Origin: Rhodocytophaga aerolata
GTDB taxonomy: Bacteria; Bacteroidota; Bacteroidia; Cytophagales; 172606-1
DNA: 64,000 bases
Assembly: GCF_030503435.1 (NCBI RefSeq)
Contig: NZ_JAUKPO010000010.1
Span: 1-64,000 of the forward strand
Reading direction: 5' to 3'
The translations under genes were made by a program, and so were the position numbers. Shown piece after piece: positions 50,168 through 56,555 of the stretch. The notes under the pieces were generated by a model. That model had not been told where the DNA came from and searched no databases. It was given only the letters and a program-made list of their open reading frames with translations. Each line of letters starts with the position of its first letter. Position 1 is the stretch's first letter.

Positions 50168-51877
50168 TTAATAACCCATGGCCGTATCATCGCCCCTTGG
50201 ATCGGCACCGCCCTCCAGTTTACCTCCTTTTTTTACCAGTATGGCATCTACCCGGCCGATAGAAGAAATTTCCCGGATTACATGCCCTTTAGCTTCCAAT
50301 GCCTGCTTGGTTTCTGGTGTAAAACCGCCAGTTTCTACCATAATCTCATCTGGTAACCATTGGTGGTGAAAACGTTTGGCATTAACTGCTTCTTGCATAT
50401 TCATGTCATGCTCAAGTACATTCAGAATCGTTTGAAACACAGAAGTAATAATAGTAGAGCCACCTGGCGTACCTACTACCATAAATAATTTTCCTTCTTT
50501 TTCAATGATGGTGGGTGTCATAGAAGAAAGCATGCGTTTCCCTGGCACAATAGCATTGGCTTTACCCCCTACCAGGCCAAACATATTTGGTACACCCGGT
50601 TTAATACTGAAATCATCCATCTCATTATTCAAGAGAAAACCTGCTTCTTTCACAACTACTTTAGAGCCATATCCGCCATTTAAGGTAGTCGTAATGGCTA
50701 CCGCATTGCCAGCTTTGTCTACAACAGAAAAATGGGTTGTTTCATTGCTTTCATTCAAGGCAAACATACCTGCCTTTATCTCAGAAGAAGGTGTTTTCTT
50801 AGCTGCTGAAATATTAGCCCGTCGTTCTGACAGGTATTTTTCATCCAGCAGGCTACTTACCGGGACAGTATAAAAGTCCGGATCACCCAGGTGGGTTGCC
50901 CTGTCAGCATATACGCGTCTTTCGGCTTCTGTCATCAGATGTACTGTTTCCGGGGCTTGCCATCCTTTTTTACTCAGATCAAAATCTTCTACCATTTTCA
51001 GCAATTGCACTAAGGCTATTCCTCCACTGGAGGGTGGCGGCATGGAAATAATTTTATAGCCTTTGTAGGTGCCCACAATAGCCTCACGCCACACAGCATG
51101 ATAATTGGCTAAATCTTCTAATGAGATAATCCCCTTATTGGTTTGCATTTCCCGTACGATCATTTCGGCTGTAGTACCTTCATAAAAGCCTGCTCTGCCT
51201 AAGTTGCGTATGCGTTCCAGGGTTTGTCCTAACGCTGGATGCTTTAAAGTATCGCCTTCTTTCCAGGCTTCCTCTCTAACCAGATACGGCAGATGGGTAT
51301 TGTGTGTAATAAAACCTTCTTTACTCCGGTTCAGGCCATCTGCTTCGTTCCTGGTTAGCCTTACACCTGTAAGGGCTAGTTCTACGGATGGCTGAATGAG
51401 TTCTTGCCAGGGTAATGAACCGTATTTTTTGTGTGCTTCTATCATGCCGTCTACTGTCCCTGGCACACCTGCGGCTAAATGCCCATCAATACTTAGGTTA
51501 GCAATTACATTTCCGGCAGAGTCCTGGTACATGGTTTCAGTAGCAAGCGCCGGAGCTTTTTCCCGGAAATCCAGGGTACTGATATCACCAGTGGCACTAC
51601 GGTACACCATAAATCCACCCCCTCCGATGTTGCCAGCAGCCGGATGAGTTACGGCTAGAGCAAACTGCACAGCAATGGCGGCATCTACCGCATTTCCTCC
51701 TCTTTTCAATATTTCCACGCCCACTCTGGAAGCTTCCGGATGGGCGGAAACTACCATGCCATTGGTAGCCGTTACTGGTTCGGCTTGTGGTATTCTAGTT
51801 TGCGTAGTACAAGCCGTAGCAAGCAATAGTACTGAAGTAACCATAAGAGTTACTTGCCGGAGATTGATATACTGCAT
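50168..51877 (-). CDS. ggt: Gamma-glutamyltransferase precursor
   Basis: The 569-residue proenzyme cleaves gamma-glutamyl bonds of glutathione and related peptides in the periplasm. The catalytic Thr380 in NETTHFSVVDKAGNAV is the self-cleavage site and becomes the N-terminus of the small subunit. The later LLNNEMDDFSIKPG and PGGSTIITSVFQ segments are intact. The N-terminus has a lipobox-like LLLATAC, suggesting a lipoprotein. It is about 220 bp from the sigma operon end and convergent with the porin. Confidence 0.96.
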   Translation of the reverse strand: MQYINLRQVTLMVTSVLLLATACTTQTRIPQAEPVTATNGMVVSAHPEASRVGVEILKRGGNAVDAAIAVQFALAVTHPAAGNIGGGGFMVYRSATGDISTLDFREKAPALATETMYQDSAGNVIANLSIDGHLAAGVPGTVDGMIEAHKKYGSLPWQELIQPSVELALTGVRLTRNEADGLNRSKEGFITHNTHLPYLVREEAWKEGDTLKHPALGQTLERIRNLGRAGFYEGTTAEMIVREMQTNKGIISLEDLANYHAVWREAIVGTYKGYKIISMPPPSSGGIALVQLLKMVEDFDLSKKGWQAPETVHLMTEAERRVYADRATHLGDPDFYTVPVSSLLDEKYLSERRANISAAKKTPSSEIKAGMFALNESNETTHFSVVDKAGNAVAITTTLNGGYGSKVVVKEAGFLLNNEMDDFSIKPGVPNMFGLVGGKANAIVPGKRMLSSMTPTIIEKEGKLFMVVGTPGGSTIITSVFQTILNVLEHDMNMQEAVNAKRFHHQWLPDEIMVETGGFTPETKQALEAKGHVIREISSIGRVDAILVKKGGKLEGGADPRGDDTAMGY

Positions 51878-52020
51878 ATAGGTAGAAGGTTATTGCTCTA
51901 TCGTAGTAAGATAAACAAAAACAACTAAATAGGGGGTAAAAGAACTTTTAGTCCTATTAAATATACAATAATCCCTTTTTATAATCCTGTTGGCTGCCTT
52001 AGATGTCGTAGACAAAATAA

Positions 52021-52051
52021 AAAACTTCCGAAGCAGTACTCCGGAAGTTTT
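52021..52051 (-). terminator. Terminator of the sigma / anti-sigma / Spy-like operon
   Basis: AAAACTTCCG (52021-52030) and CGGAAGTTTT (52042-52051) form a perfect 10-bp stem with an 11-nt loop, 45 bp after the Spy-like stop codon; on the minus strand the stem ends in a T-rich stretch. Confidence 0.75.
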
Positions 52052-52096
52052 CAGACTTGTGTGTATTTAATTACTAGATAAAATGAGTGTCGTAGC

Positions 52097-52549
52097 TTAA
52101 TCATTAGGCCGGTGCCGGGTATGCCCATCTTCCAGCCGTTCCAACAACAATTTTGTAAAATCCTGCTCTGTTTTGTAGAGTTCTGCTAATTGCCTGGCCG
52201 AAATAGTTTTTAAAAATTTATTCATGTATTCTTTCTCCAGATCTACTTCTTTTTGGCGAAGGGCAATCATATCCTGCAACGACTTTTGCACCTGTTCATC
52301 GGTTGAGGTAATGGTAGAAGTTTCGTTTCTCATGCCACGTATCTGTCTGCGGATGTCTCTTTTTTTATCTGTATATTCATTGTATACAGCCCAGAATTGG
52401 GGAGCTTGCTCGGTAGAAAGATTCAGGCGGTCTGTAATCAATCCTATTTTTGCCGTACTGATCCGTTCTCTGGCTCCGGAAGATGGCCTTTGTGCAAGGC
52501 TTGTCAGGCTTATGCATACAAAAACCATTAAGAAGAATATATTTTTCAT
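52097..52549 (-). CDS. Secreted Spy/CpxP-like helical protein
   Basis: The 150-residue protein has a signal peptide (1-19, ending SLAQ) and a long helical body with LTDRLNLSTEQAPQFWAVYNEYTDKKRDI, resembling the Spy/CpxP and heavy-metal-sensor families, which act as periplasmic chaperones or stress sensors. It is 26 bp downstream of the anti-sigma gene and is therefore the third gene of the sigma operon. It may sense envelope stress. The family match is moderate. Confidence 0.78.
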   Translation of the reverse strand: MKNIFFLMVFVCISLTSLAQRPSSGARERISTAKIGLITDRLNLSTEQAPQFWAVYNEYTDKKRDIRRQIRGMRNETSTITSTDEQVQKSLQDMIALRQKEVDLEKEYMNKFLKTISARQLAELYKTEQDFTKLLLERLEDGHTRHRPND

Positions 52550-52575
52550 GTTGGTAATCGTTTGTTTCGTCTTCG

Positions 52576-53007
52576 TTACATGTACTCTTGCAATAATTCT
52601 GTATCGGCTTCTTCCATCAAGAGTTCAGGGTTAATATCTGTCTGTTGAAAGAACTGACTGTCGAAAGTAACCTCGGCATCCGAAGCTGCTTCTATAATAT
52701 CGTATTGTGATAATTCCTGTGTTTCCAGATAATCAATAATTTCGGTATAGGCTATTTCTGAAATAAGCTGCTGCGTATTCTGCGTTTGAGAACCGGCAAC
52801 CCAGAAGTAGCTGGCTAAAAGTATCAGAAATAGGCTTGCCAAGCCAACACTGTACCTAACCCAGGAGATAGCAGGTTTATCAGCGTTTTGAACTCCATTC
52901 AACCGGCGCCGGATGTTGGCAGGTAAATCTTCAAAATAAGCATCTGGCACAATATATACCTGCTTCTTTTCCAGTCTATCAATTGATATTTTCTCTTTCT
53001 TCGGCAT
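52576..53007 (-). CDS. Single-pass membrane protein, putative anti-sigma factor
   Basis: The 143-residue protein has an N-terminal cytoplasmic segment of about 47 residues (YIVPDAYFEDLPANIRRRL), one helix at about 50-70 and a periplasmic tail rich in acidic residues. It follows the ECF sigma gene after 52 bp and has an extra ECF-type promoter of its own. This order is typical of anti-sigma factors in Bacteroidota. No zinc-finger HxxxCxxC motif is seen, so the anti-sigma role is inferred from position and topology. Confidence 0.72.
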   Translation of the reverse strand: MPKKEKISIDRLEKKQVYIVPDAYFEDLPANIRRRLNGVQNADKPAISWVRYSVGLASLFLILLASYFWVAGSQTQNTQQLISEIAYTEIIDYLETQELSQYDIIEAASDAEVTFDSQFFQQTDINPELLMEEADTELLQEYM

Positions 53008-53033
53008 AATAACTAATCTCCCGTAGCTTATAT

Positions 53034-53061
53034 GTTAGATGGTTTTTTTCTTCCAGCGTTT
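53034..53061 (-). promoter_or_regulatory. ECF-type promoter before the anti-sigma gene
   Basis: On the minus strand AAACG (53061-53057) and TCTAA (53039-53035) are separated by 17 nt. The 30-nt block ending in AAACCATCTAA matches the block before the sigma gene in the same register, with the same spacing. The -35 box overlaps the sigma stop codon. Confidence 0.6.
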
Positions 53062-53623
53062 AATTTTTATTCAAAAAATCTTCAATTTTTTTTACGGCCA
53101 GGTGGTACGATGACTTTAAAGCCCCTACCGATGTACCAACAATGGCTGATATTTCTTCATAGGTTAACTCATCAAAATATTTCATATTAAATACCAGCCG
53201 TTGTTTAGTGGGTAGTTGTAATAAGGCTTTTTGCAACTTCAGTTGAATTTCGTCTCCGGTAATCAGATTGCCGCTTTGCAGTTTGTCTAACAGCTCCGCC
53301 TTTACATCCACAATCGGCAGGAAAAATCGGCGTTTCTTCTTATCCAGAAAACTCAGGCATTCGTTGGTAGCAATGCGGTATAGCCAGGTGTATAGCTGCG
53401 AATCTCCCTTAAAACTGTGAAGATTTTTCCAGACTTTTATAAAAGTTTCCTGAGTAAGATCATCCGCATCCTCATGATCAATAACCATTTTGCGGATGTG
53501 CCAATAGATTTTCTGCTGGTATTTTCGTACCAGTTCATTGAAAGCAGCCTGTTGGGTATCCGGCTGCCGGAACCTGTCGAGAAGCTCTTTGTCTTCCAAC
53601 TGTGTCTGCGTGGTGCTCACCAT
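53060..53623 (-). CDS. ECF RNA polymerase sigma factor, first gene of an envelope-stress operon
   Basis: The 187-residue sigma factor has region 2 at about 25-95 (DHEDADDLTQETFIKVWKNL, LYTWLYRIATNE) and region 4 at about 130-180 (LVFNMKYFDELTYEEISAIVGTSVGALKSSYHLAVKKI). Its own ATG at 53623 lies only about 7 bp after the TCTAA box, so the mRNA may be leaderless. The anti-sigma and Spy-like genes follow. The shared promoter sequence at 53630-53656 suggests that the factor drives its own operon. Confidence 0.93.
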   Translation of the reverse strand: MVSTTQTQLEDKELLDRFRQPDTQQAAFNELVRKYQQKIYWHIRKMVIDHEDADDLTQETFIKVWKNLHSFKGDSQLYTWLYRIATNECLSFLDKKKRRFFLPIVDVKAELLDKLQSGNLITGDEIQLKLQKALLQLPTKQRLVFNMKYFDELTYEEISAIVGTSVGALKSSYHLAVKKIEDFLNKN

Positions 53624-53629
53624 TTACCA

Positions 53630-53656
53630 TTAGATGGTTTTCTATTGAAAGGGTTT
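53630..53656 (-). promoter_or_regulatory. ECF-type promoter before the sigma gene
   Basis: Minus strand: AAACC (53656-53652), 17-nt spacer, TCTAA (53634-53630). The block ATTAAAC..CT..AAACCATCTAA is shared with the site at 53034-53061. The TCTAA box is about 7 bp from the ATG. Confidence 0.6.
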
Positions 53657-53689
53657 AATGGAAGATAATTTTTTCCATCTATAAATAAA

Positions 53690-53723
53690 AACACCTCATA
53701 GATTTCAAAATCTATGAGGTGTT
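53690..53723 (-). terminator. Strong hairpin terminator after the transketolase C-subunit gene
   Basis: AACACCTCATAGATTT (53690-53705) pairs perfectly with AAATCTATGAGGTGTT (53708-53723), a 16-bp stem. It separates the transketolase gene from the sigma promoter. Confidence 0.85.
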
Positions 53724-53755
53724 AACAAATGAATGTATAAACTGATTTATTTCTT

Positions 53756-54724
53756 TTATTTATATATTTCTTGTTTGCGGCTGATTACTTTCTTTACAGC
53801 ATCTACAATATTACTGGCGCTTAAGCCATATTTGATCATCAGTTCTTCCGGCGTACCACTTTCACCGAATGTATCATTTACCCCAACCATTTCCAGGGGA
53901 GCTAAATAATTCCGGCAAAGCAGCTGGGCTACACTATCTCCTAAACCGCCGTTCATCTGGTGCTCTTCAGCAGAAACAGCACAACCAGTTTTTTTCACAG
54001 AGTTTAAAATGGCCTGTGTATCTAGTGGTTTAATCGTGTGGATGTTGATAATTTCTGCATCTATCCCTTGCTCGGCCAGTATTTCTCCAGCCTTAATTGC
54101 TTCCCATACTAAGTGGCCGGTAGCAAAGATACTCACATCTGCTCCTTCGTTCACCATCCATGCTTTGCCAATTTCAAATTTCTGATCTGCCGGTGTAAAA
54201 ATCGGCACTACCGGGCGGCCAAACCGCAGATAAACCGGGCCCACATACTCTGCAATAGCAATAGTAGCCGCTTTGGTTTGGTTATAATCGCAGGGATTAA
54301 TTACAGTCATGTTAGGCAGCATTTTCATCATGCCCAGGTCTTCCAGAATCTGGTGAGTTGCACCGTCTTCACCCAGGGTAACGCCAGCATGAGAAGCGCA
54401 TATTTTTACATTTTTATTTGAGTAGGCAATAGACTGGCGAATCTGGTCGTATACACGCCCGGTAGAAAAGTTAGCAAACGTGCCGGTATAGGGTATTTTA
54501 CCGCCAATGGTTAACCCGGCTGCCAAGCCCATCATGTTTGCCTCCGCTATACCCACCTGAAAAAAACGCTCAGGAAATTCTTTCTGAAAATCGCCCATCT
54601 TCAGGGAGCCTATTAAGTCAGCACAAAGGCCCACTACATTCGGATTTTTACGGCCTACTTCTAAAAAACCGGCACCAAAGCCGGAACGGGTGTCTTTCTT
54701 GTCGGTATAGGTGTATTTTTTCAT
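53756..54724 (-). CDS. Transketolase, C-terminal subunit
   Basis: The 322-residue protein contains the pyrimidine-binding and C-terminal domains of transketolase (RSGFGAGFLEVGRKNPNVVGLCADL, FAEANMMGLAAGLT, ITIHTIKPLD, AEEHQMNGGLGD). Split transketolases need an N-terminal subunit, which is encoded at 55698-56555 on the same strand. Together they transfer two-carbon units in the pentose phosphate pathway with thiamine diphosphate. A lipoprotein gene lies between the two halves. Confidence 0.93.
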   Translation of the reverse strand: MKKYTYTDKKDTRSGFGAGFLEVGRKNPNVVGLCADLIGSLKMGDFQKEFPERFFQVGIAEANMMGLAAGLTIGGKIPYTGTFANFSTGRVYDQIRQSIAYSNKNVKICASHAGVTLGEDGATHQILEDLGMMKMLPNMTVINPCDYNQTKAATIAIAEYVGPVYLRFGRPVVPIFTPADQKFEIGKAWMVNEGADVSIFATGHLVWEAIKAGEILAEQGIDAEIINIHTIKPLDTQAILNSVKKTGCAVSAEEHQMNGGLGDSVAQLLCRNYLAPLEMVGVNDTFGESGTPEELMIKYGLSASNIVDAVKKVISRKQEIYK

Positions 54725-54837
54725 CTGTTAATAATTGTTTGTCTAAGGTCAGCGGATTAGCAGGTAAAATTGGTATAACATACACAAGTTTAAACGGCTA
54801 TCCCTATAAGAAAATCCAGTATATGCGTGTAAAATTA

Positions 54838-54867
54838 AAATCCTTTCTCTTGTGAAAGAAAGGATTT
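54838..54867 (-). terminator. Hairpin after the small lipoprotein gene
   Basis: AAATCCTTTCT (54838-54848) pairs with AGAAAGGATTT (54857-54867). It is about 110 bp downstream of the lipoprotein stop codon on the minus strand and followed there by a T-rich run. Confidence 0.65.
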
Positions 54868-54976
54868 AACAGAATTATCTATAAGAATTTAATAAAATTA
54901 TCATCAGAATAACACGAAGTGTAGCTAGGCCACAAAATTTACACTTCCAAAGATGGAAAAATTATCTCTAAAAATC

Positions 54977-55369
54977 TTAATTTTTTACAGATTTCACCCG
55001 GCAATCATCAAAAAAATTATTTTTTACGCCATTTACCCAATAACTCATGGTTAGTTCTTGCCCGTTTATAGAACCTAGCCCGACTATGCGAAAGTTATTA
55101 ACCTGCTGCTCAGGAATAGAAAGTTTAGAGCCACTGATTTTAGCTTTTACGGTCAGATCTGCATTCCAGAAATTTTTGATGTAAACCACGCTGTCTTTTT
55201 CAGGTGATTTGCTTATCTGCATGGTGAACTTGCTGGTAGTAGAGACCGTAGAACTTTCTTCTTCTGCGGTGTATCTACCTACAAACTTATCTCTGAAATC
55301 AGCCGGACGCAATTCGGTAATGGAACAGCCGTACATAATAAATAATACCAGGTAAATACAAGCCTTCAT
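54977..55369 (-). CDS. Small lipoprotein, hypothetical
   Basis: The 130-residue protein has a lipoprotein signal ending at Cys15 (LFIMYGCSIT) and a beta-rich mature part (YTAEEESSTVSTTSKFTMQIS, SIPEQQVNNFRIVGLGSINGQELTMSYW) resembling small lipocalin-like lipoproteins of Bacteroidota. No family is assigned. It sits between the two transketolase half-genes, with terminators on both sides. Confidence 0.7.
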   Translation of the reverse strand: MKACIYLVLFIMYGCSITELRPADFRDKFVGRYTAEEESSTVSTTSKFTMQISKSPEKDSVVYIKNFWNADLTVKAKISGSKLSIPEQQVNNFRIVGLGSINGQELTMSYWVNGVKNNFFDDCRVKSVKN

Positions 55370-55623
55370 AGCAGATTGGGATAGATTGTGGACTTATAAA
55401 ATTAAGCCTTCGCCATTCCCTTTTTGCGTTACTATTTATAGAATTCTTACATAGGTACTATCTGTAAAGTGGTTGTACGGCCACTATCTTTGCAAAACAA
55501 ATACGTGAATTGAAAGCCAATTACTTTCACAGAAATAAAGTGGTATAAAAATTCAAGAGCCTGGTTAGCCTATGTAAGGTTTAAGCTTCAGCAATAAAAT
55601 TTTACTGTGTTATGTATAATCAA

Positions 55624-55666
55624 AAAGCACTATCACACACATTTTACTCTGGTGCAATAGTGCTTT
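55624..55666 (-). terminator. Terminator after the transketolase N-subunit gene
   Basis: AAAGCACTAT (55624-55633) pairs with ATAGTGCTTT (55657-55666). On the minus strand the stem is followed by TTTTTG. It lies 32 bp after the stop codon. Confidence 0.75.
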
Positions 55667-55697
55667 CAACCGCTGTTAAACTAAGCAGGGAACCGGT

Positions 55698-56555
55698 TTA
55701 TTTACTCAGGTAATCTATCAGTTCACCTAAGGGAAGTTGATTAAGGGCTTCTTGTAACTGATCATCGTTTGGAGCCACACCATGCCATTTATGGCTACCC
55801 ATCATAAACTTCACGCCATAACCCATCTCGGTATGCATGTTGATCATAATTGGTGAACCTTTGCCTGTCATACCTTTGGCCTGTTCCAACGCTTTTACTA
55901 CGGCTTCCATATCATTACCATTTTCCAGTTCGATTACCTGCCAGCCAAAAGCCTTATATTTTGCGCCAAGATCCATCAAATCCATAATTTCTTTGACCGG
56001 GCCATCTATTTGCTGGCCATTGCGGTCTACTGTAGCAATCAGATTGTCTACTTTATGATGGGCTGCATACATGGCTGCTTCCCAGATTTGCCCTTCCTCC
56101 TGCTCTCCGTCACCCATCAGTACAAACACCAGACGGTCGTCGCCATTGAGTTTTTTTGCCTGAGCAGCTCCAATAGCTACTGACAAGCCTTGTCCTAATG
56201 AACCTGAAGCAACTCTGATTCCTGGCAGATGTTCGGCAGTTGCCGGGTGGCCCTGCAAGCGTGAATCCAGCCTACGGAAAGTGTGCAGCTCACCTACTTC
56301 GAAATATCCTGACCTGGCCAAAGTGCTGTACCAAACCGGGGAAATATGCCCGTTAGACAAGAAGAACAGATCTTCGCCCTTGCCATCCATATTGAATTTA
56401 GGATCGTGCTTCATCAGATGAAAATACAGGGCAACAAAATATTCTGTACAGCCCAGGGAAGCACCCGGATGCCCGGATTTTGCTCCGTGTACCATACGCA
56501 CAATATCCCGGCGGACTTGTGAAGCAATGCCTTTCAATTTTTCGATATCTGCCAT
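55698..56555 (-). CDS. Transketolase, N-terminal subunit
   Basis: The 285-residue protein holds the thiamine-diphosphate diphosphate-binding domain of transketolase: GHPGASLGCTEYFVALYFHLMKHDP at about 30, GSLGQGLSVAIGAA at about 120, and the GDGEQEEGQIWEAAMYAAHHKVDNLIATVDRN metal-binding motif at about 150-180. It is the partner of the C-terminal subunit. Its start lies 60 bp after the Bcp gene on the same strand. Confidence 0.95.
   Translation of the reverse strand: MADIEKLKGIASQVRRDIVRMVHGAKSGHPGASLGCTEYFVALYFHLMKHDPKFNMDGKGEDLFFLSNGHISPVWYSTLARSGYFEVGELHTFRRLDSRLQGHPATAEHLPGIRVASGSLGQGLSVAIGAAQAKKLNGDDRLVFVLMGDGEQEEGQIWEAAMYAAHHKVDNLIATVDRNGQQIDGPVKEIMDLMDLGAKYKAFGWQVIELENGNDMEAVVKALEQAKGMTGKGSPIMINMHTEMGYGVKFMMGSHKWHGVAPNDDQLQEALNQLPLGELIDYLSK

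Follow-up and report, generated by a model that had tools for sequence, protein, structure and literature searches.

In Rhodocytophaga aerolata, two near-identical 30-nt blocks lie at either end of a gene for an ECF sigma factor, raising the question of whether this sigma factor is encoded between two promoters of its own. The DNA analysed (the window; 64,000 nt) carries on its minus strand, in this order, the sigma gene, a gene for a putative membrane anti-sigma and a Spy-like gene. Both blocks contain a promoter-like box on the minus strand. Box 1 (TTAAAC at 53658-53653, N18, TCTAA at 53634-53630) lies ahead of the sigma gene and box 2 (TTAAAC at 53063-53058, N18, TCTAA at 53039-53035) ahead of the anti-sigma gene. 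The blocks (53659-53630 and 53064-53035) have ATTAAAC at one side and AAAACCATCTAA at the other, are identical at 23 of 30 positions by hand count, and keep the same register, AAAC[C/G]-N17-TCTAA, equivalent to TTAAAC-N18-TCTAA. A letter-by-letter check bore out an earlier reading of the DNA from sequence alone (the sequence-only reading), which had described two near-identical boxes in identical register; its position for box 1 was exact, and its start for box 2 was one base short of the block start at 53064. The second box does overlap the sigma stop codon, as that reading had claimed: the TAA (53062-53060) lies inside the TTAAAC of box 2, which begins one base ahead of the stop. The search string offered for defining the regulon, AAAC[CG]-N17-CATCTAA, overshoots by two bases and misses its own boxes (N15 before CATCTAA is correct); as typed, it matched two other places in a genome-wide search.

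The sigma gene (53060..53623, minus strand) encodes 187 aa from the ATG at 53623 or, from a likely TTG start at 53599, 179 aa. The product matched PF04542 (70.9 bits) and PF08281 (56.5 bits), both above cut-off, and has sigma regions 2 and 4 only, placing it among the ECF (group IV) sigma factors. An AAC-type -35, described as a hallmark of ECF sigma target promoters (PMC8103513), is present as TTAAAC in both boxes and in those of relatives, and would be read by this sigma factor.

The next gene (52576..53007, minus strand) starts with an ATG 27 nt past box 2 and encodes 143 aa. This membrane protein is a putative anti-sigma on the basis of gene order and conserved residues: a P..YF motif occurs near the N-terminus, with P21, Y24, F25 and L28 conserved among 43 sequences, and a P..YF anti-sigma was present in 103 of 115 orthologue loci. 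No anti-sigma domain was matched in Pfam or NCBIfam by the window protein or by any of 43 relatives, and an RseA-like or zinc-type anti-sigma domain was likewise unmatched in the window protein (Pfam). Comparison with PDB sequences gave matches at chance level, and the structural model (pLDDT 76, pTM 0.29), which shows one long helix across the membrane stretch, was too weak for a fold search. The P..YF motif is repeated two to six times in 25 of 115 loci (e.g. L028, L036, L245, L251 and L269), as if several sigma-binding units were joined in one anti-sigma protein.

A third ORF follows the anti-sigma gene in 107/115 loci. In the window this ORF (52097..52549, minus strand) encodes a Spy/LTXXQ-like exported protein of 150 aa, which belongs to the Spy/CpxP (LTXXQ) family by the PF07813 cut-off (26.1 bits against 24.3); at E 0.001, a match is obtained for 11 of the 44 members aligned. 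The protein was modelled as all-helical (pLDDT 90.5). CpxP, CnrX and ZraP were among the top Foldseek matches at non-significant values (E > 0.1), and in VIA-align were mixed with unrelated helical bundles. A fold-based assignment was dropped, as these searches fail to separate the protein from unrelated helical bundles. In two Prevotellaceae loci (L254 and L256), the anti-sigma gene is followed by one whose product (203 and 193 aa, with another start) is not Spy-like, and an exact stop-embedded box is present despite this.

The borders of the operon are marked by two terminator-like hairpins on the minus strand, each with a 15-pair stem and a T-rich tail, one in the gap between transketolase and sigma genes (53690..53723) and one 3' of the Spy-like gene (52020..52052). 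The upstream neighbour (53756..54724, minus strand) encodes the C-terminal half of a transketolase (PF02779, PF02780). Transketolase is split in the window (53756-56555): its two ORFs, 55698-56555 and 53756-54724, are separated by a small lipoprotein-like ORF at 54977-55369. Very strong, long hairpins fill the transketolase-sigma gap in Spirosoma-type loci (L030, L031, L211 and L232), that of L030 being 119 nt long with a folding energy of -78.9 kcal/mol. A main-sigma promoter inside the operon was rejected, since the minus strand there lacks TAnnTTTG, the -7 box that the main sigma of Bacteroidetes is known to use (PMC7366714); from 50769 to 54123, no copy of this sequence was found on that strand.

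Within the window, the motif has two matches against 0.29 expected. At least two matches were reached in 3/100 shuffles, which makes the window by itself no more than suggestive of a box pair. Orthologue loci were examined for a strict box (i.e. TTAAAC-N16..20-TCN-A-A/T). Among 59 genomes picked by kinship, 39 contained a sigma orthologue (52-100% identity; next matches 41%), with an upstream box in 30 of these loci and an intercistronic box in 19, which lies at the stop codon in 16 cases. Named genomes were also searched, and the 80 closest of a larger number of matching loci were added; with four copies dropped, this gave 115 distinct loci together with the kin set. An upstream box was found in 47, an intercistronic box in 80, both in 27, either in 100 and neither strict box in 15. 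Dinucleotide-shuffled versions of these regions had on average 0.15 upstream and 0.22 intercistronic boxes (N18), with a maximum of two. TTAAAC was present at the sigma stop codon in 76/115 loci compared to 2/114 for the anti-sigma stop codon.

As the named loci were closest matches only, 149 genomes were drawn across the class. The sigma factor was present in 109 of them (E 1e-40 or better), and 100 loci were taken from the 104 outside the first set. TTAAAC occurred at the stop codon in 72 of these 100, including 39 with a full strict box there; any intercistronic box was present in 48, an upstream box in 23, either in 58 and neither strict box in 42. Strict counts fall below relaxed ones because the letters after TC vary (TCTAA, TCAAA, TCATA, TCTTA or TCCAA). 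By the strict definition, a predicted sigma-type promoter lies between the sigma and anti-sigma genes in 80/115 and 48/100 loci. The TC itself follows the stop-embedded TTAAAC at exactly 18 nt in all but one case per set (75 of 76 for the 115 loci, 71 of 72 for the class set). Among other TTAAAC-TC spacings, N16, N17, N20, N21 and N22 were never found, N19 once per set, and N14 or N15 one to six times. This fixed spacing is the strongest result of the sequence comparison. What is conserved in the box is TTAAAC, TC and the distance of 18 nt between them; the AAAACCA that the spacers of the two window boxes share was not found in boxes of relatives. Luck could account for the pair within the window, and the comparison with relatives decides that the boxes are real as sequence elements.

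The end of box 1 and the ATG at 53623 are separated by 6 nt, and transcription usually starts ~7 nt past a TCTAA-type box. The sequence-only reading had proposed a nearly leaderless sigma message, which would begin at this ATG, positioned at about the expected transcription start. Such a message is possible but not favoured, because a conserved TTG start is aligned among relatives, which begin at the codon corresponding to TTG 53599. In the same-genus orthologue, no in-frame ATG or GTG lies upstream of that codon, the frame is closed 8 codons ahead of the counterpart of window codon 9, and the TTG at the aligned position is the sole usual start codon there. The aligned codon in the 39 kin loci was TTG in 15, ATG in 7, CTG in 2 and GTG in 1, as judged with an ungapped offset by which some of the remaining loci are perhaps misaligned. 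The likely sigma start is TTG 53599, with a likely leader of ~24 nt if transcription starts ~7 nt past TCTAA.

Association of the motif with the sigma factor was assessed using an extended form, TTAAACSTT-N15-TCTAA, with the reversed motif as control. Matches to motif and control stood at 76:15 in the 39 sigma-bearing genomes of the kin set and at 1:8 in the 20 genomes without the sigma factor. A class-wide replicate was weaker with the same direction, with 61:29 in genomes with the sigma factor (55:29 once the five that also occur in the kin set are left out) and 4:10 in those without, by hand count. Random spread, which the sequence-only reading had named as an outcome that would count against promoters, was indeed seen for the loose motif in the own genome (68 matches vs 92 reversed controls), whereas across relatives the extended motif did not show it. 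A further motif count in the own genome likewise showed no excess (7 vs 22 reversed controls). A regulon drawn from this genome alone was abandoned for lack of excess over the reversed control, and targets were therefore sought via relatives.

A total of 58 stretches around motif matches away from sigma genes were examined. The box was covered by an ORF of at least 100 aa in 8 and uncovered in 50. A hydrophobic signal-like start was found in 46 of 53 downstream proteins, including two added same-genus targets, whereas the same rule gives 251 out of 633 for ORFs in the named loci and 28 out of 50 for those in the window. Spy-like proteins formed the largest downstream cluster (16/53); the others included lipoproteins, TonB-type, beta-barrel and OmpH/Skp-like proteins, serine hydrolases and a LysM protein. 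One lipoprotein family recurs behind the motif in five loci (L124, L127, L158, L170 and L184) and, by eye, in L176. Two loci of related genomes (L130 and L134) have tandem boxes, 73 and 97 nt apart from start to start, ahead of Spy-like genes. In the class replicate, 21 of 26 loci had an ORF within 250 nt of the motif, nine being sigma or anti-sigma genes; of the remaining 12 ORFs, 11 had a signal-like start, two of these 11 in genomes without a sigma match. The own genome contains one exact extended box, 48 nt ahead of a second Spy-like gene on contig C191, and a one-mismatch box precedes the orthologue of this gene in the same-genus genome. The phylogenetic footprint, the exactness of the spacing, the target genes and the joint occurrence of motif and sigma factor all support the proposal of two ECF-type promoters in one operon, and the same comparative evidence favours predicted autoregulation with a second feedback promoter for the anti-sigma and Spy-like genes.

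The two promoters differ in how widely they are kept. The intercistronic box is commoner than the sigma box in both sets (80 vs 47 of 115; 48 vs 23 of 100), indicating that, by sequence conservation, the predicted promoter ahead of the anti-sigma gene is the conserved element and the one ahead of the sigma gene is optional, a point that the sequence-only reading had missed. Transketolase precedes the sigma gene in 55 of the 115 loci. A sigma box was present behind transketolase in 4/55 loci of this set and 2/56 of the class set, as compared to 43/60 and 21/44 elsewhere. The window belongs to the rare group in which transketolase is followed by a strong terminator and then box 1. In the 115 set, a T-tailed terminator is present in all four loci that combine transketolase linkage with a sigma box. 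Terminators were considered as the cause of box 1 and gave a partial fit only, since 19 of the 51 boxless loci have one too. Both traits switch many times on a quick tree, and single origins can therefore not be claimed. The stop-embedded box is probably ancestral, because Cytophagales, Sphingobacteriaceae and Bacteroidales all have it, as does most of the class sample. We lean slightly towards the sigma factor being the ancestral Bacteroidia envelope-stress sigma, a functional counterpart of sigmaE, whose negative loop (i.e. an anti-sigma/Spy promoter fused to the sigma stop codon) has been kept class-wide; its supply would come by read-through from housekeeping transketolase, with a switch to autoregulation in some lineages only.

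These observations make it very probable that both boxes are promoters of the sigma factor encoded between them, in an envelope-stress operon with a positive and a negative loop. At rest, the membrane anti-sigma would hold the sigma factor, an inhibition predicted from gene order and protein families, as are the release and the chaperone activity. Envelope stress would free the sigma factor, which we infer to recognize the boxes and start transcription downstream of them. At box 1, it would raise expression of the whole sigma/anti-sigma/Spy operon (positive loop); at box 2, it would yield extra anti-sigma and Spy-like chaperone and no extra sigma (negative loop and output). The second, unlinked Spy-like gene and other exported proteins would follow through the same box, and the added anti-sigma would shorten the response. 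Box 1 would be a lineage-specific addition, mostly where the sigma gene is not directly behind transketolase. The boxes, their conservation and spacing, their co-occurrence with the sigma factor and the positions of the targets can be read directly from the genomes.

The wider distribution of box 2 would also fit box 2 as the sole working promoter, with box 1 a relic and the sigma gene served by read-through (terminators leak) or by some weak promoter that escaped notice. We consider this unlikely, as box 1 is exact in the window, is conserved in 30/39 kin loci and is preceded by a 15-pair terminator. The boxes might instead be operators of another DNA-binding regulator, or promoters mainly for a different ECF sigma, given that the genome holds 47 sigma-type matches and that the tie between box and sigma comes from sequence comparison. 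However, the motif tracks the presence of the sigma orthologue across genomes, lies at the sigma factor's own operon in most loci, and has the form of an ECF promoter with a rigid 18-nt spacing, which makes either reading quite improbable. Locking of box 2 to the stop codon in most loci could point to an RNA-level element at the sigma end, acting in translational coupling or mRNA processing; the same motif and spacing precede unlinked genes and the sigma gene, positions that offer no stop codon for coupling, and we give this very little credence. A chance repeat, for which the shuffles of the window with two matches and the lack of a genome-wide excess in the own genome could speak, is extremely improbable given that position and spacing are conserved across 215 loci, counts that contradict it unless the loci are misaligned.

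The wiring and the operon type proposed here are each already known from other systems. In CnrYXH of Cupriavidus metallidurans, an ECF sigma is combined with a short anti-sigma of one helix and with CnrX, a helical partner in the periplasm that is a membrane-anchored metal sensor. The window shares a sigma factor, a one-helix anti-sigma (putative here) and a helical partner with that system, but its Spy-like protein falls below the cut-off of Metal_resist, the CnrX-type sensor family (20.1 vs 29.2 bits). SigmaE-RseA of Escherichia coli comprises an envelope-stress ECF sigma, a membrane anti-sigma and an autoregulated promoter, with a -35 of GGAACTT as against TTAAAC in the window. Common to both are an AAC-type -35 (PMC8103513) and, as predicted for the window, an envelope-stress role, a membrane anti-sigma and an autoregulated promoter. 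The window anti-sigma differs from RseA in that no RseA-like or zinc-type domain was matched. The nearest wiring is that of sigH-rshA in Corynebacterium glutamicum, where a sigma-dependent internal promoter serves the anti-sigma gene alone, the sigma is made from other promoters and a quick shut-down has been proposed (PMC3489674). That system belongs to another phylum, responds to disulphide and heat stress and is described for one lineage that differs from related bacteria; its rshA starts lie 62 and 66 nt upstream and are not, in the portion of the paper available, reported as stop-embedded (PMC3489674). The closest operon is CirYZ-Spy of Phocaeicola vulgatus, which has the same order of ECF sigma, anti-sigma and Spy genes as the window and in which deletion of cirZ (the anti-sigma gene) raises expression of cirY, spy and two downstream genes (PMC13114119). 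Unlike the present analysis, the available part of that paper reports no promoter motif or second promoter (PMC13114119). The likeness lies in operon make-up, and P. vulgatus also has a second Spy-linked sigma. Large ECF promoter predictions may list the motif; no report of the motif, of its class-wide conservation at the stop codon or of the trade between transketolase linkage and autoregulation was found in the open-access literature, mostly without subscription journals.

Bacteroidota encode dozens of ECF sigma factors and few of their promoters are known. For a sigma factor found in 109/149 class-wide genomes, the present findings would provide a circuit, a candidate regulon and a promoter open to testing, and would tie envelope stress in Bacteroidota to Spy-like proteins. 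Box 2 is also a clear case of a predicted regulatory element fixed to a stop codon, in which the C-terminus of the protein and the -35 hexamer would set limits on one another. A negative loop that appears fixed and a positive loop that appears optional pose a question on how feedback is used in stress responses.
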